A stretch of DNA of 25,966 nucleotides from a virus: positions 1-25,966 of the IMG/VR virus record IMGVR_UViG_3300020162_001361, one strand, 5' to 3'. Made by a program: the position numbers and the translations under genes. Under the pieces are notes generated by a model. The model worked only from the letters and a program-made list of their open reading frames with translations, was not told where the DNA came from and searched no databases. Shown piece by piece: positions 5,303 to 24,606 of this stretch; positions within the stretch are counted from its first letter, which is position 1, and the number at the start of each line of letters is the position of its first letter.

Positions 5303-6887
5303 GGAGACGCCCTCCTTCCACGTTCCCGACCCCAGATGTAAGGAGGTAGCGGAGGCAGTCGATGGGGTCCTTGCTGGCTCCCTTCTGTCCGTCGCTTCCG
5401 GTCCACTCTTTAAGTGCCCAGATGGTATTGGTACAGCACTCGGAGACGTAGAGCTTCGGTGCGTTGAGGTGGTCGATTTTGTGTTCTTCATTGTAAAATA
5501 GTGCGTCGTTAATGAGGCCGACTCCCTCCTCGATGTTCTCACCAGGGCACGCTCGGAAACTCATCCCCGCGTCCTCGAGCTCCTCCAAGAGCGTCGTGCT
5601 TTGCTCCCGCGTTCCGGCGACCGTCGTATTCGCATACCTCGAGTCTATCCACCGCTCAAAGACCTCGACCCCGTCGAGCTTCTCGACCCGCTCGATCTCG
5701 CCCTTGTACGCGAGCAACCCGAAACCGAAACTCTTCTGCCCGTCTCCGGCCTCGCCGTCCGCCTTCTTCCCGCTCGATACCGCCCACGGCCCCGCATGCC
5801 CGACCCCCTCGATGTAGGTATCGCACTGCGGCCACTCCCGATACACCCACGCCCGCTCGCCGGCATCGATGCGGATCCACAACATAAACCAGTTTTTCCC
5901 GCCCGCCGGATCGCAGAAAAGGTAGTTCGTCCCGTCTTTCGGGATTTGGTCCGCCTGGACGACATGCACCGCCTCGCGGAAGCGCGGAAAACGGGTCGCG
6001 GTCGCTTTTATGGGGACGCCGTAAGCGCGGCAGAGGATTTTTTCCCGCGGTTGCTTCGCCAGCTCGGTCTTCATCCGGCCGTAGCCTGCCCACGGGTTGT
6101 TTTTTGTCTGGAAATAAATGACGCCCGCATTCCGCGTCGTGCATTCCTGCACCACCGGCACCATCTCAAAGCCCTTCCCGTTTTTTTTAGGCAAAAGCTC
6201 CGCCTCGCTCTCCTCAATCGTCTTCGCTCCCTGAAGATAGTTTTTGACCGTGGGTGAGTAGCCCTCAATGGGCGTAAACGTCACCAGCAGGATGCCATTT
6301 CGGTCGAGAAGACGGAAACGGATCGTCTCGAGCCAGTCCAACGGCACCAACTCGTCGCACCAGGCTAAATCGATCTCCCCGCCCTCGATGGTGGTGATGT
6401 CTTGCGCGTAATTCCGAAACCACACCTGCGATTTGTTCGGAAGGACCGCCGTATTTTCCGAAAATCCGTTCTTTTGAGTGTAACTGATGTTCGTGACCTT
6501 GTTCCGCTTCGCGACCCTCAGCTCCCGAGGCATGAAATTCCACACAATCGGCTGCTGCATCGAGATCGAGTTGTCGTTCGTCGTCTGAAAGCACCACACA
6601 CGGCTCGCCGGCTTCTCCAGCAGGGTGCGGACAACCATCTTCCCCGCCCAAGTGCTCTTCCCCGAGCGGTTCCCGCCCAGCACCAAGAGGTCGCGGTAGC
6701 GTTTGGCGATCTTCTCCGCCTTCGTCCAGTGCTCCGGCTCGTACCCGTACCGCACCGGATCCTCCTTCTCGCTCGAAATCCGCTTCTCCCGCTCGACCAA
6801 CAACCTCTTAGCCCCCTCAGGGTCCGCTAAAAAATGCTCCGGCGGAATAAACGGCAACAACGGGTGCGGTGATTGAGTAAAGGTCAC
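5277..6887 (-). CDS. terL: Terminase large subunit
   Basis: A 536-aa packaging motor and nuclease. The ATPase domain has Walker A GGNRSGKST (71-79), Walker B with catalytic acid IDLAWCDE (172-179) and the coupling motif LVTFTP (201-206). The nuclease domain begins around YLFCDPAGGKNW (first acidic residue D326) and ends with a DPIDCLRYLL helix that supplies a late acidic residue, as in RNase H-fold terminases. It should bind the portal and the small subunit, pump DNA and cut concatemers. Its start overlaps the HNH stop (ATGA), and its end overlaps the small HTH gene. Length and motif order are normal for the family. I cannot tell the cos or pac strategy from the sequence, although an adjacent HNH gene is often linked to cohesive-end phages. 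Confidence 0.96.
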   Translation of the reverse strand: MTFTQSPHPLLPFIPPEHFLADPEGAKRLLVEREKRISSEKEDPVRYGYEPEHWTKAEKIAKRYRDLLVLGGNRSGKSTWAGKMVVRTLLEKPASRVWCFQTTNDNSISMQQPIVWNFMPRELRVAKRNKVTNISYTQKNGFSENTAVLPNKSQVWFRNYAQDITTIEGGEIDLAWCDELVPLDWLETIRFRLLDRNGILLVTFTPIEGYSPTVKNYLQGAKTIEESEAELLPKKNGKGFEMVPVVQECTTRNAGVIYFQTKNNPWAGYGRMKTELAKQPREKILCRAYGVPIKATATRFPRFREAVHVVQADQIPKDGTNYLFCDPAGGKNWFMLWIRIDAGERAWVYREWPQCDTYIEGVGHAGPWAVSSGKKADGEAGDGQKSFGFGLLAYKGEIERVEKLDGVEVFERWIDSRYANTTVAGTREQSTTLLEELEDAGMSFRACPGENIEEGVGLINDALFYNEEHKIDHLNAPKLYVSECCTNTIWALKEWTGSDGQKGASKDPIDCLRYLLTSGVGNVEGGRLHVTGGGSY

Positions 6888-7363
6888 TGCGCCTCCTTTA
6901 TTAGTTCTCTAAAATCGTTAGCCCACTCATCCCATGCCTTTCCTTTTTTTCCTTCAGAGAGTTTAAATGCAGCGCCCGCTGCATCGCACACAACAGAACC
7001 GCCATAAAGCGTTTTGCAGTAATAAATATCTGGACAATCATCACTGGAGCGTTTCTCAATTCTTTCAAGAAGCAGCACCGGATATTCCCAAGTCTCGGAT
7101 TCTTCAAAAACTACCCAAGGGACCACAATCCCAATAGAATCCTCCCAAAAATGCCTTTTTGTGTGGCAGTGATTGCAATATGTTATCAAATCCTCGTTCG
7201 GATATTCCCACGGCCTTTTTCCTTTTGCGTAGTATGTGTGGTGAACGTGCAGCTCTGAATTTTTGTCGCCACATAAGCAACACTTCCATCCGTCACGCTC
7301 AAAGATTTGAAGACGCTTGCGTTGCCACCTTGGATTTCTTAATTGATCGCTATACTTAATCAT
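6884..7363 (-). CDS. HNH endonuclease
   Basis: A 159-aa HNH nuclease. The zinc-ribbon pairs are CCLC (C28 and C31) and CNHC (C63 and C66), with the catalytic HVHH at 39-42 and a H-H-T-Y-Y...PWEYPNEDL stretch typical of this subfamily. The N-terminus (YSDQLRNPRWQRKRLQIFER) also matches the usual opening of these proteins. The C-terminal part (about 75-159) is unassigned. The start at 7363 is fixed by an ATGA overlap with the upstream gene; the frame continues to 7393, but that part overlaps the neighbour. HNH proteins beside the large terminase often assist genome-end cleavage, and a homing role is the alternative. G+C is visibly lower than in flanking genes, which suggests later acquisition. 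Confidence 0.87.
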   Translation of the reverse strand: MIKYSDQLRNPRWQRKRLQIFERDGWKCCLCGDKNSELHVHHTYYAKGKRPWEYPNEDLITYCNHCHTKRHFWEDSIGIVVPWVVFEESETWEYPVLLLERIEKRSSDDCPDIYYCKTLYGGSVVCDAAGAAFKLSEGKKGKAWDEWANDFRELIKEAQ

Positions 7364-7527
7364 TTTTTTGTAGCCCTCTGGAGGGACCTCCAATCATCAA
7401 CCGCTTTGCATGCCTTCGCGTAGGCGTCCATTGCTCGCTTCATCGCATCAATCGCCTCGTCTCGCTCGCGTTCTAATTGGCGGGATTTGACTGCATAATC
7501 TGTCTCTGGTTTAGTTTGTTCGTTCAT
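7360..7527 (-). CDS. Short coiled-coil protein with QLERERDEA motif
   Basis: A 55-aa protein with a sharply heptad-like centre: QLERERDEAIDAMKRAMDAY, followed by a lysine-rich end (SLQRATKK). It carries an ETD at residues 8-10, like the T-P-E-T-D openings of its neighbours. Both ends are coupled: its ATG lies 17 nt inside the upstream gene and its TGA overlaps the HNH start. The region coding for the motif is a near-copy of sequence in the upstream gene, so it looks like a duplicated fragment of that family. Function is unknown; small T-P-x-T-D/LERERD proteins are frequent in phage genomes. Confidence 0.7.
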   Translation of the reverse strand: MNEQTKPETDYAVKSRQLERERDEAIDAMKRAMDAYAKACKAVDDWRSLQRATKK

Positions 7528-7741: not shown

Positions 7742-7810
7742 CTCGGCCCACTCGGTCGGCACAACGTGGTTCCCCCGTGCGATGTCGTCAGTCTCTGGCG
7801 TTCCACTCAT
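7511..7810 (-). CDS. Coiled-coil protein, TPETD/LERERDEA phage family
   Basis: A 99-aa protein that opens SGTPETDDIARG and has two copies of the QLERER(D/E)EA heptad motif, at residues about 24-32 and 46-54, separated by a hydrophobic ASVIKLVVLA segment. It ends in a basic helical part (RKYLKWVHDVAESQKKW) and a polar tail. Small proteins with a T-P-x-T-D start and an LERERDE coiled coil are common in phages, and their function is unknown to me. The start at 7810 is set by an ATGA overlap with the upstream gene; the longer frame to 8023 is Gly/Glu-rich shadow sequence. Confidence 0.72.
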   Translation of the reverse strand: MSGTPETDDIARGNHVVPTEWAEQLEREREEAKLASVIKLVVLAQQLERERDEAMEGWREARKYLKWVHDVAESQKKWTIRTLCKEGLIKTEKQNERTN

Positions 7811-8085
7811 CCCTCGTACCCCCCGTGCAACAACACAGATGTCTTCGGCTTCACGTCCACCAACGCCCCAGCCGGATCCTTCCCCACCACCACCGGCTCG
7901 TTCGCCCTGTAAAATGAATTGTTCCTCACCGACACATTCACCACCACCCCCTCGATATCCACCCGCAATATCCTCGGGTTCTGTGGCTGTCTCCCAGGCG
8001 CCGTCTTTCCCCTCTTCGGCCACTCAGGTAACTCCATCTGCTTCGTTTCAGTTTTACTCTCTTGCTTTTGGTTCGTGTTTTTCAT
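7807..8085 (-). CDS. Hypothetical 92-aa protein, first gene of the packaging/head cluster
   Basis: The first 30 residues are polar and lysine-rich (KNTNQKQESKTETKQ, ELPEWPKRGKT). They are followed by a compact beta-rich part (RILRVDIEGVVVNVSVRNNS, then EPVVVGKDPAGALVDVKP) and an ending VLLHGGYEG. No family is recognised; the V-x-V pattern suggests a small beta barrel. I chose the ATG at 8085 because the upstream extension to 8166 runs into a G-tract leader and has no gene character. The gene follows the promoter-like gap at 8086-8219 and is coupled by ATGA to the next gene. Confidence 0.6.
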   Translation of the reverse strand: MKNTNQKQESKTETKQMELPEWPKRGKTAPGRQPQNPRILRVDIEGVVVNVSVRNNSFYRANEPVVVGKDPAGALVDVKPKTSVLLHGGYEG

Positions 8086-8164
8086 AAAATTTTTCGGGGG
8101 CTGGACGAGTGGGGGTGAAAATCGTGGGGCCAGAAACCGACCCCCCTCCCCCCCTCTTTGACCC

Positions 8165-8198
8165 ATAACTTCTTATAACACCCATTATACATAATTCT
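8165..8198. other. lox-like 13-8-13 site
   Basis: The left arm ATAACTTCTTATA (8165-8177) matches the P1 loxP arm ATAACTTCGTATA at 12 of 13 positions. After an 8-bp spacer, the right arm TATACATAATTCT (8186-8198) matches the other loxP arm at 9 of 13. The spacer sequence differs. The site overlaps the TATAAT element. The only tyrosine recombinase in the window is the integrase, which has its own att region, so this may be chance in an AT-rich gap. Confidence 0.25.
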
Positions 8199-8215
8199 CG
8201 GCTGTTGTGTTGCAA
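8184..8215 (-). promoter_or_regulatory. Candidate promoter for the packaging/head operon
   Basis: On the minus strand a perfect TATAAT (8184-8189) lies downstream of TTGCAA (8210-8215). The spacer is 20 bp, longer than the usual 16-18, so the -35 assignment is doubtful. Transcription from here would give a leader of about 90 nt containing a G-tract (minus strand of 8141-8154) that can pair with C-rich stretches nearer the first gene. It is one of the few gaps over 100 bp in the minus-strand operons, which is where a promoter would be expected. Confidence 0.4.
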
Positions 8216-8219
8216 TCAC

Positions 8220-9017
8220 TTACGAATTCACCTCAGTAATATCACCCTTTTTAGTGCCCTTATTGAGACTGGAAGGTAGTGCCGGACGAGAGTTTGCCGG
8301 AGGGACCCGCTCACCGTTACTGGTTCCCTCGGGGGTATCGATGGTGTACTCGGCGTCTACGTCGTCGAGCTTCTTGGGGATGGAGTTGATGAGTTCTTCG
8401 TAGCTGAGGCCGTTGATTTTGTGCTCGATGTTGATGGTGAGTTGGGATCCACCTTCGGAGTCGCGGACCTTGTCTTGTGCGGTGCCGGCGATGAAGTTGA
8501 GCTCGGCTGCTTTCATCTTGTCTACCTGGTCTGGGTCGTTGAGTTTGTCTCGGATGGCATCGACTGCGAGGCGTCTGACGTCGCGCCAAGCGTTGCTAGC
8601 GACTTGGGATTCTTTGTCTTTGGTGTCGGGGTGGTTTGCGATGATGCGAGCGATGAGGGCTGGATGGACGCCGATGCGGGATTGGATGGTGCGGTGGGTC
8701 ATGCCCATGAGGTAGAATTCTGCGACGATATCGCACAGGGCGCGGAAGTTCGTAGACATGCCGTCCCAGTTAACGTCTTCTTCGCATTCTTTGGCCTGTT
8801 CTAGGGCATTTTCAAACCGACTAGGACGTTTACCCTCCTTGGTCAGTGTAGCGTCCGCTTGACGCTGTAGCTTCCATTCGACGGCTTCCTCGTAGTTGAC
8901 TGGGCAACCGGCACGGAACCATTGGACGGCTGTCTGTTGTCGAACCTTGAAGCGGGTCGCGAGTTTGACGGAGATGGAGTGTTCGGTTTCTGGTTTGGCT
9001 GTGCGTTGGGGTTTCAT
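8220..9017 (-). CDS. Putative terminase small subunit (two HTH regions)
   Basis: A 265-aa DNA-binding protein. Residues about 15-45 form a Nu1-like winged HTH (VKLATRFKVRQQTAVQWFRA, then GCPVNYEE). A second HTH is seen around MGMTHRTIQSRIGVHPALIA. The C-terminal half has a long helix pair (LAVDAIRDKLNDPDQVDKMK, then AAELNFIAGTAQDKVRDSEG) resembling the oligomerisation part of small terminases, and an acidic, disordered tail. The start at 9017 is set by an ATGA overlap with the upstream gene and has GGAGAG nearby. It lies four genes before the large terminase rather than next to it. A replication-linked DNA-binding role is the main alternative. Confidence 0.5.
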   Translation of the reverse strand: MKPQRTAKPETEHSISVKLATRFKVRQQTAVQWFRAGCPVNYEEAVEWKLQRQADATLTKEGKRPSRFENALEQAKECEEDVNWDGMSTNFRALCDIVAEFYLMGMTHRTIQSRIGVHPALIARIIANHPDTKDKESQVASNAWRDVRRLAVDAIRDKLNDPDQVDKMKAAELNFIAGTAQDKVRDSEGGSQLTINIEHKINGLSYEELINSIPKKLDDVDAEYTIDTPEGTSNGERVPPANSRPALPSSLNKGTKKGDITEVNS

Positions 9018-9265
9018 GGTTTGGCTCTCCAGTTGGATGCTTCGACTACGAGGCGTCGGGCCTCTTCGAGGGAGTGGAAGTAGATTTCTTGTTCGCCGAT
9101 GTCGCGGGTGTATTCTGGGGGATTGATGTGAGCGATGGCCCAGCGGAGGGATTCGGCGAGATCGGTAGCGAGTCGGCAGGTGTGCCGGATGCCTGGGTGG
9201 TCTTGCCATTCTTTGTTGCAGGACGGGCAGCCGATGTTGGGGTCGATGGAGTAGGGTTTTGTCAT
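9014..9265 (-). CDS. Small protein with a possible zinc site, unknown function
   Basis: An 83-aa protein with ATGA overlaps at both ends, which is strong support that it is translated. The N-terminal part has CPSC (residues 13-16), then H at 23, H at 28 and C at 30 in NKEWQDHPGIRHTCR, which could bind one zinc ion. The remainder is helical (LATDLAESLRWAIAHINPPE, then a SLEEARRLVVEASNW helix). No family is recognised. It sits between the TGT-like gene and the putative small terminase. Confidence 0.65.
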   Translation of the reverse strand: MTKPYSIDPNIGCPSCNKEWQDHPGIRHTCRLATDLAESLRWAIAHINPPEYTRDIGEQEIYFHSLEEARRLVVEASNWRAKP

Positions 9266-9897
9266 ATGAACTGAAGTTGAGGTCTAGAATCTCCGTGAGT
9301 GCTTTGAGCGAGATATCGGTTTAACTCTAGCAACCTGTCATCGCCTCCACGCACCCATCCGGTTCCATCGCAAGATTCGGCTCCGGCCTCATGGGCCATC
9401 CAAAGCAAACGCTCGGAGTTTACTCTGCCGACATGCACTCTAGGAAAATTGTCAGTCCATGATCGAAGGTGACGCCATTTCCAATCTGTTGAACCTCCTA
9501 CAAAAACAACATCTGCTTCGTTAGGGACATCATTTGGCGTCATGCCGTCTTGCACAGCAAATGCAAATCCAACTCCGTGCAGCAGGTTCTTTAGTTGTGG
9601 CATCCACTCATTCCAACGAATTATTGTTGCCTCTTTATCTGTAACAACGTCTGGAACAACAACCCATGACGGCTTATGTGCGGAATTTGATTTTTCAATC
9701 AAATTAAGGAACGCATCAGCATCCCATTCTCGGTCATTAGCCCATGCACCATAAGCCCCATTGTCCAAGGCATATGGCATCCATGATGGCGGCTTTCTCC
9801 ACCCGTCTGGAGATATTAGCCAGCCTATACGATTTTCGTATTTGCCTGCTAGATATCCTATTTCGATACCAGAGTTATTTGAGGGCATAACAATCAT
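9262..9897 (-). CDS. Miniature TGT/DpdA-like guanine-exchange protein
   Basis: A 211-aa protein. Five short motifs occur in the order of the tRNA-guanine transglycosylase barrel: YALDNGAYG (D45, compare TGT LTDSGGF), VVPDVV (D83, compare the FDE segment), FAVQDG (Q116, compare VQGG), VFVGGS (134-135, compare the GGL loop) and ESCDGTGWVR (D177, compare the nucleophile loop DCVLPTR). A HVGRVNSERL segment precedes the last motif. The zinc-binding C-x-C-x2-C of classical TGT is absent, and the protein is about half the usual length. Phage relatives (DpdA) insert 7-deazaguanines into phage DNA to escape restriction; a tRNA target or another reaction cannot be excluded. No preQ0 synthesis gene is visible here. 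It is coupled by ATGA to the helicase and the next gene. Base composition is more AT-rich than in neighbours. Confidence 0.55.
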   Translation of the reverse strand: MIVMPSNNSGIEIGYLAGKYENRIGWLISPDGWRKPPSWMPYALDNGAYGAWANDREWDADAFLNLIEKSNSAHKPSWVVVPDVVTDKEATIIRWNEWMPQLKNLLHGVGFAFAVQDGMTPNDVPNEADVVFVGGSTDWKWRHLRSWTDNFPRVHVGRVNSERLLWMAHEAGAESCDGTGWVRGGDDRLLELNRYLAQSTHGDSRPQLQFI

Positions 9898-11168
9898 TTC
9901 GTGCGCCCTTCAAATCTAGATATATCTCCGCGCATGGTGACTGGGATGGCTCGGTCTCGTTCTCCGTCGCGGTTCTTGGCGATGTGTACAGCGGATCCGT
10001 CTTCACCTTTGCGGATGAGCCAGACGTGGTCGGAGTGGTGGCCGATGGCGCGAGACTCGCGGAGCCGGCCCTCCTCGTTGAGTTGGGATGCTGTGGCTAG
10101 GGCGAGGTTGAGTTGCAGGGCGATGGCTTTGAGGCGGCGGGTAATTTCGGAGACGTGTTGTTCTCTTGTCTCGTTGGAGTTCATGTTGCGGAGGTGGACG
10201 AGTTGGATGTAATCGACGACGACGAGGTCGGCCCTGCCTTGGCTCGCGAACTCACGGATAGCGCTTTCGATGCTGTCGAGGTCGGAGTAGCCGGACTCGA
10301 CTTGGATATTCATGCGGGAGATGTCTGAGGTGGCTGCGTTGAATCGGTGGAGTTCTTGGGCGTTGGGGTCTTGCTTGATGCGTTTGATCGGGAATCCGGC
10401 GAGGTTGGAGATGAATCGGGCGAGGACCTTCTTGGCCGGCATCTCGAGGCTGAAGATTAAGACGTGCTTGCCGGCACGCATGGCCTCGAGGGCGATTTGG
10501 AGCAGGAGGATGGTTTTACCGCCCGAGGTTTCGGCGGCGATGGTCATCAGTTCCCCAGGCTTGACTCCACCGGAGGCGATTTCGTCTAGGGCGTAGATTC
10601 CGGTGCCGTAGGACACGGTGGGTACTTTGTCCTCGAGCTCGGAGACGAGGTCGTTGATGTGGTCCTTGGTGGATTTGCGGGGCTTGTCGAGTTGGGCAGC
10701 GCACTCGGAGAGGGCAAGGCTGACGGATCCGATGTCGCCGGTCTCGTCTCGGAAGGACTCTTGAGCCTCGGCGAGGATCTTGGAGGCGTGGCGGTATCGA
10801 GCCGAGTCTACGAGGTAGGCTCGGTGCCATCGGGTCGTCTCGGGGTCGGATGGGGTATTGGTGATGTATTCGGCTAGGCTTCCGATGGATTCGAGGAGGC
10901 CAGTGCGCTCGAGCTCGGCTTGGACTGCGAAGAAGTCATTCTTTCCTGACCCGCTTTCGTGGCACTTTTTTGCGGCAGCGAGGATGGTTCGGTGCTTGGG
11001 GATGAAAAACAAATCTTCTGGCCAGCTCATGGCCTCGAGGTTTTGGTTGTTTGCCAGGATAGCTGAGATGGCAGCCTTTTCGGAGGATTCGTTGAATGGG
11101 ACGGCTTTTTGCATCGGCTGGGTAAGGAGGTCAGAGTCTGGCCATCTGGTTGCGAGATTGGTTCTCAT
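9894..11168 (-). CDS. dnaB: Replicative DNA helicase, DnaB-like
   Basis: A 424-aa hexameric helicase. The N-terminal helical domain (about 24-125, starting FNESSEKAAISAILANNQNL) is followed by a linker and a RecA-fold domain with YGTGIYALDEIASGGVKPGE, Walker A AETSGGKT (212-219), the FSLEM segment (239-243) and Walker B LVVVDYIQLV (315-324). The later ATASQLNEEGRLRES and HHSDHVWLIRK segments correspond to DnaB motif 4 and the arginine-finger region. It should unwind the phage origin and recruit primase. It follows the winged-helix replication gene by 6 nt, which fits an initiator-helicase pair. The start at 11168 has the A-rich leader CCAAAAATG. M19 is a possible alternative start, just before the conserved domain. 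Confidence 0.95.
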   Translation of the reverse strand: MRTNLATRWPDSDLLTQPMQKAVPFNESSEKAAISAILANNQNLEAMSWPEDLFFIPKHRTILAAAKKCHESGSGKNDFFAVQAELERTGLLESIGSLAEYITNTPSDPETTRWHRAYLVDSARYRHASKILAEAQESFRDETGDIGSVSLALSECAAQLDKPRKSTKDHINDLVSELEDKVPTVSYGTGIYALDEIASGGVKPGELMTIAAETSGGKTILLLQIALEAMRAGKHVLIFSLEMPAKKVLARFISNLAGFPIKRIKQDPNAQELHRFNAATSDISRMNIQVESGYSDLDSIESAIREFASQGRADLVVVDYIQLVHLRNMNSNETREQHVSEITRRLKAIALQLNLALATASQLNEEGRLRESRAIGHHSDHVWLIRKGEDGSAVHIAKNRDGERDRAIPVTMRGDISRFEGRTK

Positions 11169-11174
11169 TTTTGG

Positions 11175-11609
11175 TTAGAGGCAGGTTCTGAATGTGGGGG
11201 TCGTAGACCCCTTTATATTCTCTTCTCTAGGTGACGGTGAGACCGTGAGGGAAGCGTGAGGTTTAGCGTGATAATGCTTCTGACTCCTCTTGGCACTTAA
11301 AGCCCTCTCCTTTGCTGTCTTACCATTATGCCTCTCAAACTTAGATAGCGTAATTGACTTACCGGAGCGCAGGATCCAACCCACGTTTACCATGGCCTCG
11401 ATGAACCCCTCAACGCCAACCTCGCGATTTAACAACGCTGACACCGTGAGAGAAGCGTCGCCATTTTTGGTGTGTCCATCGAACCATCTCCAGACCCGCA
11501 TGAGCTTCCCGACGACCGCATCGGGGTCCAGATTTAGCGTTGCCGCTATGTCGTGGACCTCCTGCTTGTCGGGGGTCGTTGTTTCAAATTTAATCCAATC
11601 TCCTGCCAT
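11175..11609 (-). CDS. Winged-helix phage replication protein
   Basis: A 144-aa protein of a type common beside phage DnaB helicases. It starts GDWIKFETTTPDKQEVHDIA and continues LDPDAVVGKLMRVWRWFDGH, with a later GFIEAMVNVGWI helix and the conserved ending FERHNGKTAKERALSAKRSQ. The pattern is a winged-helix domain (about 1-95) with a basic, disordered tail. Such proteins act like the lambda O N-terminal domain or a helicase loader at the origin; that role is inferred. It begins one base after the stop of the upstream gene. No iteron array is visible inside the gene. Confidence 0.7.
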   Translation of the reverse strand: MAGDWIKFETTTPDKQEVHDIAATLNLDPDAVVGKLMRVWRWFDGHTKNGDASLTVSALLNREVGVEGFIEAMVNVGWILRSGKSITLSKFERHNGKTAKERALSAKRSQKHYHAKPHASLTVSPSPREENIKGSTTPTFRTCL

Positions 11610-11610
11610 A

Positions 11611-11817
11611 TTATTTACCCTTCTTAAAAAGTGCCTTGAGTTCGTTGCGTTGGCGCTCGAGGCGCCGGCTGCATTCGCGGAGGGGGAATGACCAGAGGGA
11701 TCCCGATGCGGCGACGGCGGCCTCGGTCTCTGGGGTGTCGCTCACCCATGCGCTCTCGGGGAGCGCTTCGGCTCGGTCTCGGGCTTCCTCTATCTTGGTC
11801 CAGTCTGGCTTGCTCAT
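11611..11817 (-). CDS. Small TPETE/LERQRNE coiled-coil protein
   Basis: A 68-aa protein with the segment SDTPETEAAVAASGSLW followed by ECSRRLERQRNELKALF, which matches in layout the T-P-E-T-D plus LERERDEA proteins encoded at 7360-7810. The C-terminus is basic (KALFKKGK). Function is unknown. The start is set by an ATGA overlap with the DUF551-like gene; the long frame to 12075 is an artefact of a neighbouring gene. The lysine-rich end also supplies AGAAGGG upstream of the next gene, which may act as a weak ribosome site for it. Confidence 0.7.
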   Translation of the reverse strand: MSKPDWTKIEEARDRAEALPESAWVSDTPETEAAVAASGSLWSFPLRECSRRLERQRNELKALFKKGK

Positions 11818-12017
11818 TCCTCGTCCTCCGGAGGGAGTGGGAGCGGCATCCAGTGCAATACAGGTTCCTCTTCGTGAATTCGTGCGCCTGATACATTGCG
11901 CCAGACGTTGCCGTCGAGAAAGCCTGTCCAGACCTCGCCGCCGAGTGTGTGGATGATGACGGTCTCTCCGTCGTCCGGTGGAGTCGTTGCCGGAATCCAT
12001 GTGATTGTTGTGCTCAT
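11814..12017 (-). CDS. DUF551-like protein
   Basis: A 67-aa protein with the DUF551 layout: W-I-P-A near the N-terminus (TTITWIPATTPPDDGETVII), a central G-G-x-V-W-T-G-F-L-D-G-N-V-W-R run, and the C-terminal hallmark HWMPLPLPPEDE. This family is frequent in phages and has no known function. The start at 12017 overlaps the stop of the 30-aa membrane peptide (ATGA), and its own stop overlaps the next gene. Confidence 0.75.
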   Translation of the reverse strand: MSTTITWIPATTPPDDGETVIIHTLGGEVWTGFLDGNVWRNVSGARIHEEEPVLHWMPLPLPPEDEE

Positions 12018-12106
12018 ATATTGTCGTCGTTTTCTTGGATCGCCCACAGGAAGACTCCCGAGAAGACGATGCCAATTGCTAAGATGCTGAAGATGATTGC
12101 TTTCAT
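12014..12106 (-). CDS. 30-aa single-span membrane peptide
   Basis: A very short frame encoding one membrane segment (AIIFSILAIGIVFSGVFLWA) with a lysine before it and an acidic tail (IQENDDNI), so the N-terminus is probably cytoplasmic. It is below normal gene-finder length. Its ATG overlaps the RuvC-like stop and its TGA overlaps the DUF551-like start, both as ATGA, which supports translation. The role is unknown; lysis control, superinfection exclusion and membrane anchoring are all possible. Confidence 0.6.
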   Translation of the reverse strand: MKAIIFSILAIGIVFSGVFLWAIQENDDNI

Positions 12107-12537
12107 TTTGTATCGAATGCGTAGACGGCTACCGCGAGTGCCGCCCAGAGGTGGCTCTTCATGCCGTAGGTCGGGCCTGGGGACTTCTTCGTGCCTTGTG
12201 GCCCGAGTCGGTCGATGAGCGCCTGCCGGACGTTTCCGTCCTTGGCTCTCGGGGAGTGGCAGAGGTGGAGCTTGACGTCGCGCCGGTAGCAGAGCCGTGG
12301 CTCGACCCGTGCCACCTCGGTGAATCTCCCTATCCACACGCAGGTCATAAAGACCTCCTTGCCAACGGCCATGCCGTAGGAGGCGATCATCTCACAGGCC
12401 GCCGCGTCATATTCGCGTCCGATGAGGATCTGTCTGATCTCCGCATTCGGCAGGTGGTCGGCGTCGATGATCCGGCGCCCGTCCCAAAGGACAAACGCCG
12501 TCTCCGTAGTGCCAGGGTCAAGGGCAAGGATGGTCAT
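12103..12537 (-). CDS. RuvC-like Holliday junction resolvase
   Basis: A 144-aa RNase H-fold nuclease. The first strand carries ILALDPGTTETAF (D7), the second acidic residue is in AACEMIASYG (E49), a third lies in AKDGNVRQAL (D100), and the last helix KSHLWAALAVAV has H129 where many RuvC proteins have Asp. It should resolve branched DNA before packaging or act in recombination. It lies directly after the SSB-like gene with one base between them. The final D-to-H change is found in some phage RuvC-like proteins and need not abolish activity. Confidence 0.8.
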   Translation of the reverse strand: MTILALDPGTTETAFVLWDGRRIIDADHLPNAEIRQILIGREYDAAACEMIASYGMAVGKEVFMTCVWIGRFTEVARVEPRLCYRRDVKLHLCHSPRAKDGNVRQALIDRLGPQGTKKSPGPTYGMKSHLWAALAVAVYAFDTK

Positions 12538-12538
12538 C

Positions 12539-13039
12539 TCAGAACGGGATGTCGTCTCCGTCGGCGGTTTTGTTGGCGGGCTTTGTCGGCACCTTCACGT
12601 CGTCGCCACGGTCGATGGTCGAGAGACGGTCGATGAGTTTTTCGATGAGCTCGGGATCGACCTCGTTTTTCGGGGCTTGTTCCGCAGGGTTGAGCCAGCG
12701 AGCCTTGAATCGGGTCTCCCCGTTGTACTCCTCGGTCTCAACGGTGAGGGAGCATGCCTGTCCCGCGAAGGTCGCCGTGCCGCTGGCGAGCGACTTGATG
12801 TCCCAGTTTTTGCCGAAGCAATCGTCGAGCGTGAGCATCGTGCGCTTGGCGGCCTTCTCGGTGAGGTAGCCGCGCCAGACGATTTCGCGCCCGTTTTGCG
12901 ATCCCGCGTCGGTCACTACCGCCGGCACTCGGATGAATTCGCTGCCGGAGTCGGTGACGCCGATCCACCCGTTCCCTGGGGCCTTCACCTTGCAAAGGAA
13001 TCGGCCCGTTTCGTTGACGTATCTATTTTCGTTATCCAT
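12539..13039 (-). CDS. Single-stranded DNA-binding protein (SSB-like, DUF669-like)
   Basis: A 166-aa protein with a beta-rich N-terminal region (GRFLCKVKAPGNGWIGVTDS, then EIVWRGYLTEKAAKRTMLTL) and a segment TFAGQACSLTVETEEYNGET followed by RFKARWLNP. The long polar linker ends in the acidic tip DGDDIPF, which is close to the DDIPF of bacterial SSB. The pattern recalls the DUF669-type phage ssDNA-binding proteins found beside Sak4 ATPases and RecB-like nucleases. Function is inferred from the tail and the neighbours. The start has no Shine-Dalgarno (AACTAAAAACAAT before ATG). The 98-bp gap upstream holds only weak inverted repeats (GGTCCG/CGGACC). Confidence 0.6.
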   Translation of the reverse strand: MDNENRYVNETGRFLCKVKAPGNGWIGVTDSGSEFIRVPAVVTDAGSQNGREIVWRGYLTEKAAKRTMLTLDDCFGKNWDIKSLASGTATFAGQACSLTVETEEYNGETRFKARWLNPAEQAPKNEVDPELIEKLIDRLSTIDRGDDVKVPTKPANKTADGDDIPF

Positions 13040-17935: not shown

Positions 17936-18133
17936 CTATTCCTTGCCTTTGGACGTCGAGGCGTCTTGTCGCGGGGAGATTTTGGCGTTGCGAATTCCCA
18001 GGGCGACGAACGCATCATTCTCGCCCAGCTCCTTGCCGATGCTCCAGGCACCAGGGCGCGAAAACTTAGCGTTGAACAGGTCAATGTTTTCCTGCTGCTT
18101 GCGCTGCTTTTCTATGAGTTCTTGTTGAGTCAT
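17936..18133 (-). CDS. Small helical protein at the end of the virion operon
   Basis: A 65-aa protein. It begins with a strongly charged helix (TQQELIEKQRKQQENIDLFN), then has AKFSRPGAWSIGKELGENDA and a basic, polar end. No family is recognised. Its ATG overlaps the stop of the giant gene (ATGA) and has GGAGGT six bases upstream, so it is clearly set up for translation. The terminator follows. It may be a small virion-associated or chaperone-like partner of the giant protein, by position only. Confidence 0.65.
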   Translation of the reverse strand: MTQQELIEKQRKQQENIDLFNAKFSRPGAWSIGKELGENDAFVALGIRNAKISPRQDASTSKGKE

Positions 18134-21100
18134 TGTGCTACCTCCGTCTGTGACATATATCCCATAAGGTCGGCCGCGTCAATCTCGTCAAACGCCCTTT
18201 GTGGGTCATAACGGTCGGCAATCTCGGCTCGGCGTTTACGAATACCATCTTTTGCAGCTTTAGAAAATGCCGCCTCTTGGTCTCGCAGAGTTTTGGCTGT
18301 TTCGCGGGCTTGCTTGATGTATCCAGAGACGACTTTTTTGTCTTCCGCTGGCAACGCTTCAAATTTTGTTTTCTTGCCGCTGACATAATCGGCAAATGCC
18401 GACTGCATTTTTTTAGTTCCTGGGATTTCCATCGACTGCCCAGCGCGAGCCAGCGCTTGGTCAGCAGACATGCTTTCGCTTTCAGTTATTGCTTTGGCAA
18501 GTGCGTCCAACTCCTCTCGGCCAATAAACATCGTCTCGTTTTTCTTTAAGCGAGATTTGAGATTGGCCTCAACATTTGCCGTTTGCATTACCGATGTTGG
18601 CGCGTTCGCTGCAATGCCGCTGACGGCTTTATCGTAAAACAATTTTTGCACGGCGTCTCGGAATGGGCTGGGTGAAACAGGGTCCGACGAACGGTAAGAC
18701 GGAACGACCATTTTTTCTGATGTGGATACCGATATCCCATGTTTTGCCATCACTGCTTGAATAGCGGATTCGCTGTTAAGAACCGCTTGCATAAAGTCAC
18801 CATCATAGAACTGGCCGCCGATAAACACACCTTTGTCTGAAGGTGTGTAGCCGGTGAAAATTCGGTTGCCGTTGCTGTCTCGGATTTTTGCCAAGTCAGT
18901 AACAAACGCCGTTCTTTGCGCGGTTGTCATTTGACCTGTTTCAAATGAAACAACAGGCTGCTTTTCTACGGCTGGGTCATACAATTCCTTGGCGCTTGGC
19001 CGGCGGAAAATGTTGCCACCTTGCTGCTCGACCGCTTCGTTGACGACTTGCATCAGATATTTGGTGTCGCCCCTGTCGCCACGGACGATGGCTGTGATCT
19101 GGGGTGTTTCGGTGTAGACGCCGTCGTCCATCGTAAACCCGCCAAGATCGGTTTTTACCGAATCAACTTGCAGCTTGATGCCGTGCTGTGTTGCCAAGCC
19201 GGTCAATTCATCGGCCAGATTATTGGCAAAGTGTGCTGTGAGCCTTGCGAGCGACTGCTTGTCTCCGGCTTGCTCCATTGTCTGAAGTGCCGAGTTGATC
19301 GCTGTAGCGGTGCGCCCTGTGCCTACCGTCGCTACCTCGAACGGCAGTTCTTGCCTTGCCATTGCAGTATAAGCTCTCTCCATCGCGTCGAGCACTTGCG
19401 CTCCACGGACATTACGTTGCCCTCCTGTGCCAGCGATTGCTTGCAGCTCCATCTTGAGCGGTTGGATGCTGTCGCTGAAAAGAGACAGGTCGTTGTTGGC
19501 AAGAATTGGGTTATCTTTCTTTTCAATGGCCCACAGGATTTCTTGCGCATTACGCGCCTTCAATTTTTCTTTGCCAAACATGGATGCTAGACCACGGCGA
19601 TTTAGTTCGTCGGCCAACAACCCATCGATAGCTTGCTGCGCATCGTAAAGGCGCCCGCCACCTCCAGGAGACAATCCAGCATCGGTGCCTGCGGTGTAAG
19701 TCGTAAAATCTGCACCGGCAAACGGGGCCTCGCTATCTAAGCGGGCTTTCCATGTTTCTGCGGTCCAATCAAAGTTACCTTCAATGCCAAGCGTTCTGGC
19801 TTGCTGATAACGAAGTTCTGCTGGCGAATTGATAGCGAGTTCTTTTGCAACTTTGGCCCAGCGTGGAGATCCGATTGTGTCCTTGGCTGCTTTGCTTTTT
19901 TGCGTCCACTCAAATGGCTGTTTCAAATCTGACCGTTTTTTAGGATCAAGAATAAACCCAGGCACCGCAACACGCTTGGCTGCCATGTCCCACATATCGA
20001 TGGTTGCTTTACCATCCAAGATTCGCTCGGTCTCTGCGAGTTGCTGCGGCGTTAGCTTGGACGCATTGGGATCAACAAGTTTGAGTGATTTTGCAGCGCG
20101 TGTTTGAAGCATTTCTGCCGATGCAGTGTCGCCGTTTTTGCGAGCAGATTCGATCATCTCCGAAAGGCCATTGATGTAAAATGTTCGGACCTTGTCTTGG
20201 ACGCCTTTGATATCCAAATCAAAGTGTTTTCCGGCATTAAAATCCGCCTGACTTTGACGCGTTGCGCGTTGAATCTCTCCAAATCCCATTTTGTATCCGG
20301 CTGTAAATTCCCCAAGCGACGCTGCCGCAGCGCCAGCCGATTTAGTGCTGTTAACAGGAACATTTGTGCGAACGCTACCAAGTGCTAAGTACCGAAGCAT
20401 TTCGTCAGCGCGATTGAAACGCTCGATTCCGGTGATTTGCGGATTGATGATTTCGGCCAGAGTTACGGCTTCGGTTCCCATGTCGGAATAAAATCGAGCG
20501 CTCTTCTGCGCAAACTCAGTTTCCCGCAGTCCGGTGTCGTGAACACGATCTGCCAGCAACTTCACCAACTCACGCACTTCAGTGAAGTTTTTTGGCATGC
20601 CAGGAGCATTGCCAATGAGTCCATATCGAGGCGGTAGGACTACACTTCCTTTAACTGGATTTTGTGGATAGAGCGCCGTGTCGCGGTCTTTGGCAAGTAG
20701 GCTTTGATCGTATACAGAGTGAATCATCCGCGCAGATTCTTCAATCGGGTGGATATCCGGCATGGCTTGGCCTTGGGGATTGTATAAGGCGTCTTCTGTG
20801 GTTTTGGGTAAAGATATGAGCCGGTCTCGGGAGTAGCCGGAGAGCTCGTTCATGTCAGTGATTGGATGTAATGACAGCTCGTCACCCATTTCGTGAGCTC
20901 CCCACATGCGATCTCCGTCGGACCATCGGCGGGCGACATCGAGTGCGCTGGATGGTTGTTCGCCGTGTTTTCTTAAAAAGGAACTCAACTGCCGATCTGT
21001 CATTTGTTCGATTGGCTTTAGAGGTTTTGCATCCGGCATGGCTTGGCCGGTTGGCAGGTCTCTTGACAAGTCCGGCAGCGGTGTAGGGATTTCGGGGAGG

Positions 21101-24100
21101 AGGTTGTTGTTGGCTTTGTCGTAGTCGAAGTGGAAGCCTTGGCGTCCGGTGCCGACGGCGGCGTCCACTCGGTCGAGGCGGAATTGCTTGATCGCGCTGC
21201 TGGGGCCGGCGATTTTGCCGCTGAATGGGTTTGCGGCTTTGTTGATGTTGGTGCCAATGCCGATGAGGGAGTTGATGGCGTCGCGGCGTTGCTCACCGAT
21301 TTTGTTGGAGCCTGGGAGGTCGTTGCGGTGATTGTCCATCCACTGCTTGAGGTCGGCCTCGATGAGTTTGATGTCGTTGTTGTAGAGACGACCGATGTTC
21401 GGTTCGCCGGCGTTGATGGCTTTGATGGCACGGTTGCGGAATTGGGTAAGGTCTAGGACGGATGCGAGGAGATTGTTTGGTCCGCTGAGTTCCCAGCCCC
21501 AGGGGATAATTTCGCGTGTGATGGCCTCGAGGTTGCCGAGCTTTTTGATCTGGAATGCGCCGGTGTCTCCGCTGCCGATGGAGTGGTAACGGACCTGCAT
21601 GCTTTCGCCGGTAGCGGCAGCAGTTTCAAATTGGCGAGCGAAGCCGCGTTGGTGTTGCGCGAATCCGTTGAGGAAATCGAACTGCTGCGGGAGTATGCGG
21701 CCTCGCACGGTGACGCGGCCGTCGGCTGTCTTCTTCGGGCCGAGATTTGGGTCGGTGGCTGGAATGAGCTTTGAGCCGACGAGCGTTTTGACCTGTTGCT
21801 GGCGCTTGATTGTTTCGGCGGTGATGTCGCGCTGTTCGCGGAAGACGGCTTGTCCGGTGGTTGGATCCATGCGGGCGAATTCATTAGCCATGACGCCGTT
21901 CCCATAGTCGTGGAACGTGACCTGGGGATTGTTTGCGAGGTCGCTTGCTCGTCCTGCTGGGGCCACACGGACGCCTCGGGCTTGGGTCTGCTCTGGGTGG
22001 TTGATCCAGTTGCGGTAGTTGTTGAGGTATTGGTCTAGCTGTTTTTTGAGGACAGGATCGGTCGCCAGGATGGGGTTCGCTTTAAAGAGGGGGTCCGGCT
22101 GGCCGGTGACAGGGTCGATGCGGACGCCCGAGATCGAGAGAGCGTTAGCCTGGGCACCGAGGAAGTTCTCCATGCTCCCGAGCCATGATCCGTCTGCTGG
22201 AAGGTGGCGGCGGATGCCGGCAAAGTCCATCGATTGGCTGGCTTGTCGGAAGTCCTCTGCAAAGATTTCGTCCCGAGCCCAGTCGAGTGGATCCATGTCG
22301 CCTCGGAGGAGTCCAGATTGGCCGAGCTCGTCCATCTTGGCGCTTATGGATGCAGGAGTGACAGGGAAGTTTTGCCCAGGGAATTTGGCGGCGTTTTCGT
22401 TTTGGATCATTGCGGTCGCGTATTCGCGGCCACGGGCTTCGACTCCGGCTTGGGTGTAGCGGCGGGTGGTGAAGGAGCGAATCGTATCGGCTTGGGCGCT
22501 GCCGAGGGCTCCGCTCTTGAGCAGGGCGTGCCCGAGTTCGTGCGGCACGATGCCGTCGCGTTTGGCGTCGAGGTTGACAAAGACACGGGCCTTTTCTCCT
22601 GGAGGCGCTTGGATGAAAAGTCCAGCGGCGCCATTTTGAAATTGAACTTTTGCGTTTTTGATGAAGTCGCTGTCTCCCGCTCGTTCTATGCCATCCAGCG
22701 GCACGAAATCCACCTTGTCGCGGAAGAATCCCTGCATGGCGGCGAGGTCGCCGAGTTGTTGCTTGGAGTAGGTCTGAATTGTCTTGGTGACATCGCCGCC
22801 GGCGAGCTCGACATCCATGAGCATGCGGGCGGTGTCAAAGGCGCGGGACTCGGCGCGGCGTTGCTCGAGGCCGGTGAATCTGCCAGCGGCTCCGCCTAAG
22901 GCGCCAAAACCAACGCCCATGCCGAACATATTTGCTGCGGCTTTATCCTCGTCGGCATTGAGTGCGAGGGCAACGAACGGGGCGTTGGCGACGGCGCCCT
23001 TTACCGCTCCGGTGGCTACGGCAGACGTTCCACGCACCCCTTGGACGATGGCGGGTGATGCGAGTGCGTCGGCGATGGCGCGGGTCTGCTTGCCGAGTCG
23101 TGGGTCGGCAGCGAGACGAGCTGGGGTGGACTCGATGGGGCGAAATCTGGTGGGGTTCTCGAGAGCTTCGCGTACCAAGGACAGCTCTGGAAAAGCCTCG
23201 AGCTTGGTGGCGACGGAAGCTTGAGCTATGTCGTCAAATCCCTCGCCGGCATCCGAGGCAACGCGCAGGATGGTGGCCGTGGGGCCAGCGATTTTCTGGA
23301 CCGTGCGTAGGACACCGAGTCCCGCTTTGTAGCCTAGGTAAGCGCCTCCGATGAACTTTGCCGCGTCCTGTGCTTGGGCAACTCCTGGTATATCGCTATC
23401 CAAGCCGAAGAATCCTGCACCGATGCCGCCAGCGGCAGACCACTTGGCCATCTTGATCTGGTTCTCTGGAGAAATCTTTGTGCCTTTTTGGATGATCTCT
23501 TGGAATTTTGCGGCACCAGTTTCCATGCCGGCGATGCCTTTGGCTGCGGCACGGTCAAGCACGCGGGCTGCTCTGGCACCACCCGCTTTAGTGAGACGGG
23601 AGAGGCCAAGGGTTTTTGCGCCTGCGCTAAGAGGGACGCCCATTGTAGCGATGTTGGTCGGCTCAAGTAGGCCGCCAGCCAGCTCCGAGGTGGCCTGCAT
23701 GGGTTGCTCGGTTTGGTTGCGACCTGTGACTAGTCGGGTGACGAACTCGGTGGGTGCAGTGGTAGATGCGACCCATTCTTCGAGTTCTTTTTGCCGTGAG
23801 CGCTCCATGACAAATCTGTCAAACTCTTCGTCCTTGAGGTCTTCTTCGGTGACGGCGCGAATGGATCGGCCTTGCCCTGCGGCGGCTTGTTGCTGGCCAG
23901 CGAGCACCTCCGCATCCGAGCGACCTGCGCCGGATTGACCGAATACAAACTCGCCCGTTTGCTCATCACGGCCGATAGGCGTGGGGGCATTCGTCTGGCG
24001 GATCCAGCGGGTCACAGCGTTGGTGTTGCGCCACGATTTCTTGGCCGTGGCTTTCATTGTCGCAGGGGAGCGGGCGAGAAATTCGCCTGGGTCATCCGAG

Positions 24101-24606
24101 ATTTCGTGGATCGTATCGCCGATTGTTTGCAAGAATCCTTGAGCTCCTGTCGCCGCGTCTTCAAGCAGCCCAGGTATTTTGCCTTCGGATTTCAGTCGAG
24201 CCTTGAGTTGCTTGGCCTCGAAGTATTCGTCGCGTGTCGGGATGTAGGTCGGGTCGTCGTAAACGGATGCGACTATTTTTTGATCGATTTCGTCGGGCGT
24301 AAATTTTGGGACGCTTTGATCGTAAAGATCAAGCTCTTCTGGAGTATAAGCTCGGCTGGGATCCAGTGATTTGATAGGCCCCATAGCGGGCCCGCGAGAC
24401 GGCTCGGGAATGGAAAAAGAAGTCCCGTCCCCGACGGCCAACTCGGGTGAGCCTGTTGCTTCAGGCGCTGTTGGTGCGCTTGCTACGGGGGCAGCAGAGG
24501 CGGTGCGGGAAATTTCTGGATTCTCGACCGGCAGCTCGGCGGCGGCCATTGCATCGAGTTCCTCGACGGTGTATTTCCTATCGTGCGACAGAGTATGTTC
24601 GGCCAT
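18130..24606 (-). CDS. Giant virion/ejection protein with zincin-like HELGH motif (polyvalent-type)
   Basis: A 2158-aa protein. The N-terminus is Pro/Ala-rich with repeated Y-T-(V/P)-E-E-L-D motifs (12-18 and 86-93). Glycine-rich hydrophobic stretches (GGIGAGFFGL, GGAYLGYKAGLG, MFGMGVGFGALGGAAG) fit a membrane-penetrating ejection protein. HELGH at 689-693 in GIVPHELGHALLKSG, with an EIFAEDF segment further on, is a zinc-metallopeptidase signature. A linker GQAMPD occurs at 1187-1192 and 1279-1284. The C-terminal half contains segments such as WDMAAKRVAVPGFI and WAIEKKDNP and a coiled-coil end. Large phage polyvalent proteins with zincin domains are thought to enter the cell with the DNA. The gene overlaps the upstream gene by 29 nt. 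The exact family is not proven. Confidence 0.6.
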   Translation of the reverse strand: MAEHTLSHDRKYTVEELDAMAAAELPVENPEISRTASAAPVASAPTAPEATGSPELAVGDGTSFSIPEPSRGPAMGPIKSLDPSRAYTPEELDLYDQSVPKFTPDEIDQKIVASVYDDPTYIPTRDEYFEAKQLKARLKSEGKIPGLLEDAATGAQGFLQTIGDTIHEISDDPGEFLARSPATMKATAKKSWRNTNAVTRWIRQTNAPTPIGRDEQTGEFVFGQSGAGRSDAEVLAGQQQAAAGQGRSIRAVTEEDLKDEEFDRFVMERSRQKELEEWVASTTAPTEFVTRLVTGRNQTEQPMQATSELAGGLLEPTNIATMGVPLSAGAKTLGLSRLTKAGGARAARVLDRAAAKGIAGMETGAAKFQEIIQKGTKISPENQIKMAKWSAAGGIGAGFFGLDSDIPGVAQAQDAAKFIGGAYLGYKAGLGVLRTVQKIAGPTATILRVASDAGEGFDDIAQASVATKLEAFPELSLVREALENPTRFRPIESTPARLAADPRLGKQTRAIADALASPAIVQGVRGTSAVATGAVKGAVANAPFVALALNADEDKAAANMFGMGVGFGALGGAAGRFTGLEQRRAESRAFDTARMLMDVELAGGDVTKTIQTYSKQQLGDLAAMQGFFRDKVDFVPLDGIERAGDSDFIKNAKVQFQNGAAGLFIQAPPGEKARVFVNLDAKRDGIVPHELGHALLKSGALGSAQADTIRSFTTRRYTQAGVEARGREYATAMIQNENAAKFPGQNFPVTPASISAKMDELGQSGLLRGDMDPLDWARDEIFAEDFRQASQSMDFAGIRRHLPADGSWLGSMENFLGAQANALSISGVRIDPVTGQPDPLFKANPILATDPVLKKQLDQYLNNYRNWINHPEQTQARGVRVAPAGRASDLANNPQVTFHDYGNGVMANEFARMDPTTGQAVFREQRDITAETIKRQQQVKTLVGSKLIPATDPNLGPKKTADGRVTVRGRILPQQFDFLNGFAQHQRGFARQFETAAATGESMQVRYHSIGSGDTGAFQIKKLGNLEAITREIIPWGWELSGPNNLLASVLDLTQFRNRAIKAINAGEPNIGRLYNNDIKLIEADLKQWMDNHRNDLPGSNKIGEQRRDAINSLIGIGTNINKAANPFSGKIAGPSSAIKQFRLDRVDAAVGTGRQGFHFDYDKANNNLLPEIPTPLPDLSRDLPTGQAMPDAKPLKPIEQMTDRQLSSFLRKHGEQPSSALDVARRWSDGDRMWGAHEMGDELSLHPITDMNELSGYSRDRLISLPKTTEDALYNPQGQAMPDIHPIEESARMIHSVYDQSLLAKDRDTALYPQNPVKGSVVLPPRYGLIGNAPGMPKNFTEVRELVKLLADRVHDTGLRETEFAQKSARFYSDMGTEAVTLAEIINPQITGIERFNRADEMLRYLALGSVRTNVPVNSTKSAGAAAASLGEFTAGYKMGFGEIQRATRQSQADFNAGKHFDLDIKGVQDKVRTFYINGLSEMIESARKNGDTASAEMLQTRAAKSLKLVDPNASKLTPQQLAETERILDGKATIDMWDMAAKRVAVPGFILDPKKRSDLKQPFEWTQKSKAAKDTIGSPRWAKVAKELAINSPAELRYQQARTLGIEGNFDWTAETWKARLDSEAPFAGADFTTYTAGTDAGLSPGGGGRLYDAQQAIDGLLADELNRRGLASMFGKEKLKARNAQEILWAIEKKDNPILANNDLSLFSDSIQPLKMELQAIAGTGGQRNVRGAQVLDAMERAYTAMARQELPFEVATVGTGRTATAINSALQTMEQAGDKQSLARLTAHFANNLADELTGLATQHGIKLQVDSVKTDLGGFTMDDGVYTETPQITAIVRGDRGDTKYLMQVVNEAVEQQGGNIFRRPSAKELYDPAVEKQPVVSFETGQMTTAQRTAFVTDLAKIRDSNGNRIFTGYTPSDKGVFIGGQFYDGDFMQAVLNSESAIQAVMAKHGISVSTSEKMVVPSYRSSDPVSPSPFRDAVQKLFYDKAVSGIAANAPTSVMQTANVEANLKSRLKKNETMFIGREELDALAKAITESESMSADQALARAGQSMEIPGTKKMQSAFADYVSGKKTKFEALPAEDKKVVSGYIKQARETAKTLRDQEAAFSKAAKDGIRKRRAEIADRYDPQRAFDEIDAADLMGYMSQTEVAQ
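20755..21048. repeat. 18-bp in-frame direct repeat within the giant gene
   Basis: ATCCGGCATGGCTTGGCC occurs at 20755-20772 and at 21031-21048, 276 bp (92 codons) apart. On the coding strand both give GQAMPD. DNA on the two sides differs in composition: G-rich codon use to the right (N-terminal half of the protein), more AT-rich to the left. Confidence 0.8.

Follow-up and report, generated by a model that had tools for sequence, protein, structure and literature searches.

The 211-residue protein encoded directly after the replicative helicase gene of this phage is probably a minimal DpdA-type DNA transglycosylase, a TGT-superfamily enzyme that would carry out base exchange in phage DNA. The window, by which we mean the whole stretch of DNA analysed, is the entire IMG/VR record (25,966 bases) and the record is a genome fragment, a quarter of which is taken up by one 2158-aa ORF at 18130-24606. 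A sequence-only reading of the window had placed a TGT/DpdA-like gene inside the replication operon, and genes for a replication initiation protein (PHROG 2509, 7e-46), an SSB-like protein and a DnaB-like helicase do lie nearby. The large terminase subunit is encoded nearby too, as is an AAA_24-type AAA protein. The features on which the argument turns are as follows.

9262-9897, minus strand: mini-DpdA gene (211 aa), ATG start, predicted active-site residues D45, D83, Q116, G134-G135, H155 and D177.
9894-11168, minus strand: DnaB-like replicative helicase gene, upstream of dpdA (Pfam DnaB_C, 2.1e-38).
9014-9265, minus strand: 83-aa ORF downstream of dpdA, its start overlapping the dpdA stop (ATGA).
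9266-9921, no strand: one-gene cassette holding dpdA, absent from six close relatives (blastn).

The ATGA coupling to the DnaB-like gene proposed in that reading is real, the start of dpdA overlapping the stop of the helicase gene at 9894-9897; a second ATGA, at 9262-9265, joins the dpdA stop to the start of the 83-aa ORF. dpdA looks cotranscribed with dnaB, and the enzyme would then be active during replication.

The structure prediction that had been suggested as a check gave a TIM barrel that agrees with TGT along the full domain. The AlphaFold2 model is of high confidence (pLDDT 92.5, pTM 0.89, with 26 family sequences), and in a Foldseek search of the PDB the first-ranked match and the whole of the listed top 50 were TGT-family chains at probability 1.00, Cap10 included. 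VIA-align placed 205 of the 211 residues on a TGT bound to preQ1 (Z 15.4, rmsd 3.3), and viral-model matches that carry names are mostly queuine tRNA-ribosyltransferases. The sequence-only reading had named a confident hit on some unrelated family as evidence against itself; none emerged, and the only profile link found is to phage DpdA.

All the motifs listed in that reading are present: D45 (LDNGAY), D83 (VVPDVV), Q116 (VQDG), G134-G135 and D177 (SCDGTG). In the model they follow the C-terminal ends of the strands at 42-44, 78-80, 110-115, 130-133 and 175-178, and the C-terminal strand ends are where the active sites of TIM barrels lie. The Asp/Gln/Gly-Gly set thus appears in TGT order at successive strand ends. 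Across 60 diverse members of the family, invariance is confined to 17 positions (D45, N46, G47, P82, D83, Q116, D117, G118, F132, G134, G135, K140, H155, G157, R158, V159 and D177), and every one of the listed motif residues is among them. This invariance and the fold led us to reject chance occurrence of the motifs. Comparison of the window with relatives indicates strong purifying selection (pN 0.10-0.26 per site, pS saturated), on which ground we rejected a degenerate or non-functional gene.

TGT enzymes employ an Asp nucleophile that acts on C1', an Asp pair that binds and activates the base, and a Gln and a Gly-Gly that line the pocket. In the mechanism we propose, D177 would attack C1' of deoxyguanosine and guanine would leave. 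The 7-deazaguanine that replaces it in phage DNA would be bound and activated by D83 and D45, in a pocket lined by Q116 and G134-G135.

Sequence comparison points to the DpdA branch of the superfamily. Pfam and NCBIfam scans of the 211-aa protein returned nothing at E up to 10, the Pfam TGT family PF01702 included, and phmmer and profile hmmsearch of PDB sequences gave chance hits only and no TGT. The protein does match PHROG 15826 (2.5e-33) and, at 5e-4, PHROG 887, the phage queuine tRNA-ribosyltransferase family. Aligned by hhalign with phage DpdA (9g, SHIN8, R29Z and 7-11), the family profile reached E 2.9e-7 with a score of 54.3, against a best E of 0.034 and score of 21.5 from 60 column shuffles; the reversed profile and unrelated QueD, QueC and NDT profiles gave no match in this test. 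The pairs aligned with 9g DpdA are D45-D72, D83-D114, the Gly-Gly pair with GG162-163, H155-H196 and D177-D215. Q116 has no exact alignment with a Gln of 9g DpdA, which counts against the DpdA reading. According to Hutinet and colleagues, His196 is a conserved residue of DpdA that DpdA2 lacks (PMC6884629), and its counterpart H155 is invariant in the family.

A small tRNA-type TGT, which would tune translation during infection by placing 7-deazaguanine in the tRNA of host or phage, is an unlikely alternative. The fold is the same as that of the tRNA TGTs, and genes that supply 7-deazaguanine would serve tRNA equally well. Against it, the profile homology is to DpdA and not to TGT (hhalign with nine bacterial TGTs gave no significant match), the histidine that marks DpdA is present, and the zinc site and C-terminal part with which bacterial TGTs handle tRNA are missing. 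The setting also argues against tRNA: in the window the gene lies among replication genes, and in Vibrio phage R29Z its counterpart lies between clamp and DNA polymerase. The small size and the missing zinc-binding cysteines had been noted in the sequence-only reading; neither a CxCx2C motif nor the full zinc motif of bacterial tRNA TGTs (CxCx2C...H) occurs in the sequence. The DpdA proteins of phages 9g and SHIN8 likewise have no CxCx2C motif, so its absence is no argument against DpdA. We infer DNA as the target of the mini-DpdA from (i) the homology to DpdA; (ii) the DpdA histidine; (iii) the absence of a zinc region for tRNA binding; (iv) the place among replication genes.

The mini-DpdA differs from each of its known counterparts. 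Like the preQ0 DNA transglycosylase of 9g and Seuratvirus (PHROG 887), it has the D/D/GG/H/D residues, no zinc cysteines and a linkage to QueD, QueC and FolE genes. It is shorter (211 aa against 317), stopping soon after the catalytic Asp and lacking the C-terminal region; identity is about 20%, it belongs to a separate PHROG (15826), and it is usually accompanied by one pathway gene only, or by none. The DpdA proteins of Salmonella phage 7-11 (234 aa) and Pantoea phage MED16 are also small and without pathway genes. Among single sequences, that of 7-11 gives the best profile match (E 6.4e-6), but it falls outside the close family of mini-DpdA and has other residues around the motifs (MED16 was not part of this comparison). 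Bacterial TGT (EC 2.4.2.29) shares the fold and the order of the active-site motifs, and differs in its length (375 aa in E. coli), zinc site and tRNA substrate, with no profile match at the sequence level.

The family is not unique to this phage. At least 125 matching stretches were found in IMG/VR viral contigs in one scan, 80 of which were kept as IMG/VR loci for the neighbourhood counts; tblastn located members in 24 phage records, and ten bacterial or MAG contigs also carry them. Actinophage members are already annotated as 'DpdA-like tRNA-guanine transglycosylase'. Those of Mycobacterium and Arthrobacter phages belong to PHROG 15826, whose entry lists the function as unknown, and share length and motifs with the window protein at about 31-34% identity; GreaseLightnin 55 and Aoka 40 are of this type and ReqiPine5 gp03 is in the same family. 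The member in Erythrobacter phage ZS04 (L083 7935-8576) is labelled 'DarB-like antirestriction protein', probably a misannotation judging from its sequence; a DarB-like role is unsupported and the ZS04 protein shares the DpdA motifs. A 499-aa protein of an uncultured marine virus (BFVD A0A0F7L9Z1) has a mini-DpdA-like domain fused to another part (31% identity, 209 columns).

The neighbourhoods of these genes link the family to 7-deazaguanine synthesis. With gene calls in which family members were forced, and profiles built from the neighbour genes, queD lies within 2 kb of mini-dpdA in 58 of the 80 IMG/VR loci, its start usually falling within the last codons of dpdA; as IMG/VR records are fragments, a missing queD need not mean that the phage has none. 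The neighbour is a true PTPS/QueD (PF01242, 1.5e-30) whose catalytic and metal-binding Cys, His and Glu positions are conserved in 67 copies. As a control, 106 mutually related loci were fetched with the window terminase and DnaB: five of the six that carry mini-dpdA also have queD, and the 100 that lack it have no queD. Because of that relatedness the counts are given without a probability. In the mini-DpdA tree the window sits in a supported clade of 30 rows, 20 of them with queD, and the queD label switches at least seven times on well-supported branches. QueC adjoins mini-dpdA in five loci (L041, L042, L051, L104 and L110) and FolE in L063, and the gene orders seen include dpdA-queD, dpdA-queD-NDT, queD-queC-dpdA, queD-NDT-dpdA and dpdA-folE-queD. 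We found no earlier description of the mini-dpdA-queD pairing in the literature searched, outside which recent subscription papers may fall. PAPS-reductase-like genes also recur near mini-dpdA in unrelated phages (L007, L053, L054, L082 5625-6659 and L084 8661-9578).

In the actinophages Aoka, ReqiPine5 and GreaseLightnin the partner is, in contrast, not queD but the gene for a membrane protein of the VUT family (PF02592, with a score above gathering), to which the preQ0 transporter YhhQ belongs. These genes (L082 7089-7616, L084 7417-7950 and L085 7424-7981) lie just upstream of mini-dpdA or overlap it, and the two make a candidate scavenging pair.

A search with phrog_887 detected no full-size DpdA in the IMG/VR relatives, which are fragment records, beyond the mini protein itself. 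The mini protein is therefore the only candidate exchange enzyme seen there, and a full-size DpdA doing the work in these relatives finds no support. Escherichia phage SHIN8 and Vibrio phage R29Z present a different arrangement, possessing the preQ0 pathway, a full-size DpdA and a mini copy (L113 11738-12330 and L086 4767-5351, respectively). The mini copy adjoins clamp and DNA polymerase genes, and in SHIN8 consists of two overlapping ORFs. Its presence beside full DpdA hints at a distinct role, at least in these two phages.

Pathway-gene linkage is a property of the family and not of the window fragment, in which the proposed search for FolE, QueC, QueD and QueE homologues found no QueC, QueD, FolE or QueE-type radical SAM gene, nor a VUT gene. 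The sequence-only reading had supposed a scavenged base, and a base acquired from outside fits the lack of synthesis and VUT genes in this fragment record. Since no synthesis or import gene is seen in the window, the base used by this phage would be a host-made 7-deazaguanine (preQ0 or a close derivative), produced for tRNA queuosine; in most relatives the adjacent queD would boost the supply. In many relatives QueD stands where the window has the 83-aa ORF, but this ORF does not encode QueD and has no Pfam or PHROG match. We rejected the notion that it is a decayed QueD, as it is an ordinary conserved ORF found directly after dnaB in relatives without dpdA.

Those relatives also bear on how the gene arrived. 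When window 7800-12600 was searched with blastn and the junctions were read, matches ended at 9265 and restarted at 9919-9925 in six close relatives (L131/L197, L132, L134, L133/L198, L161 and L199), with identities of 91-96% in the flank that holds dnaB and 81-94% in the opposite flank. Because these relatives lack 9266-9921 and have the 83-aa ORF within a few bases after dnaB, the window can be said to carry a one-gene cassette. The dnaB product also ends differently, with FEGRTK in the window and FELR or FEIR in the cassette-less relatives, as would be expected if the exchange started within dnaB. The order dnaB-dpdA-queD is found in L214 and L230, among other loci. In L021, whose terminase is 97% identical, dpdA lies downstream of the terminase gene and none is present at the dnaB site; by this reading the gene entered this phage group at least twice.

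The AT-rich composition from which the sequence-only reading had suggested recent gain is borne out, dpdA having a GC content of 46.5% and GC3 of 38% against 58.4% and 72.7% for dnaB, a GC within the lowest 2% of stretches of the same length. With the clean empty site, this supports mini-dpdA as a recently gained accessory gene. Loss in the relatives is less likely, as the deviant composition speaks for gain. The HNH endonuclease gene at 6884-7393, beside the terminase gene, is AT-rich too (GC 43.9%, GC3 42.9%) and is probably another recent arrival.

Two further accounts of the protein deserve mention. One is that it attaches deazaguanine to protein, or removes it, as a relative of Cap10 of type IV CBASS, possibly as a counter-defence enzyme. 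Cap10 is reported to belong to the TGT family and to help conjugate a 7-deazapurine to a protein (PMC11996544). Foldseek places Cap10-CdnD structures (9ntn) near the top, with the highest sequence identity of the matches listed (20-22%, against 12-15% for TGTs), but their alignments are poorer than those of TGT in rmsd (7.2-7.6) and TM-score. Cap10 acts on protein from a defence operon, and no such context is seen around mini-dpdA: no PADLOC model matches the protein, and no CD-NTase or Cap9 was noticed adjoining it in neighbourhoods that were not scanned gene by gene for CBASS. We regard this account as highly improbable. Least probable of all is that in relatives the protein acts with an NDT-like protein on free bases or nucleotides, the modified base entering DNA through the dNTP pool: an NDT-like gene (PF05014, 1.5e-9) does accompany queD and mini-dpdA, in several orders, in 18 of the 80 IMG/VR loci and in L105 (L044, L050, L052-L056, L058-L061, L064-L067, L076, L077, L079 and L105), but it is absent from the window and most of the family, and exchange inside a polynucleotide agrees with the TGT fold and the conserved nucleophile.

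If the mini-DpdA does exchange guanines in DNA, the modified bases would probably hide some sites from restriction enzymes, and the gene is probably a compact accessory for concealing viral DNA from the defences of the host. The extent of modification may be small. Among phages with DpdA alone, mycobacteriophage Orion has no detectable modification, while low levels of dADG were measured in the DNA of 7-11 and MED16, with about 0.02% and at most about 0.3% of guanines modified, respectively (PMC6884629, PMC8306585). As DpdA-only phages range from none to well under 1% of guanines, the suggestion in the sequence-only reading that this phage may hyper-modify its genome is probably too strong.

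It is about evenly balanced whether the family as a whole forms a large and uncharacterised DpdA branch, made up of minimal enzymes of some 200 residues, close to a bare barrel, which spread between phages as cassettes of one to three genes. Each member would have a single supply gene as its partner, differing between phages (queD, queC, folE or a VUT-type importer); there would be no such partner where the host supplies the base, and a deoxyribosyltransferase would sometimes be present too. Earlier work left 76 DpdA-only phages without a predicted modification and found no correlation of YhhQ homologues with any phage group (PMC6884629). The mini-dpdA-queD pair and the actinophage pair of mini-dpdA and transporter make the source of the base in DpdA-only phages directly testable. 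If the proposal is true, DNA guanine exchange needs this barrel only, and the partner gene reveals which precursor is limiting in each host. A near-minimal unit for swapping bases in DNA would inform the TGT superfamily and would offer a compact tool for writing modified guanines.
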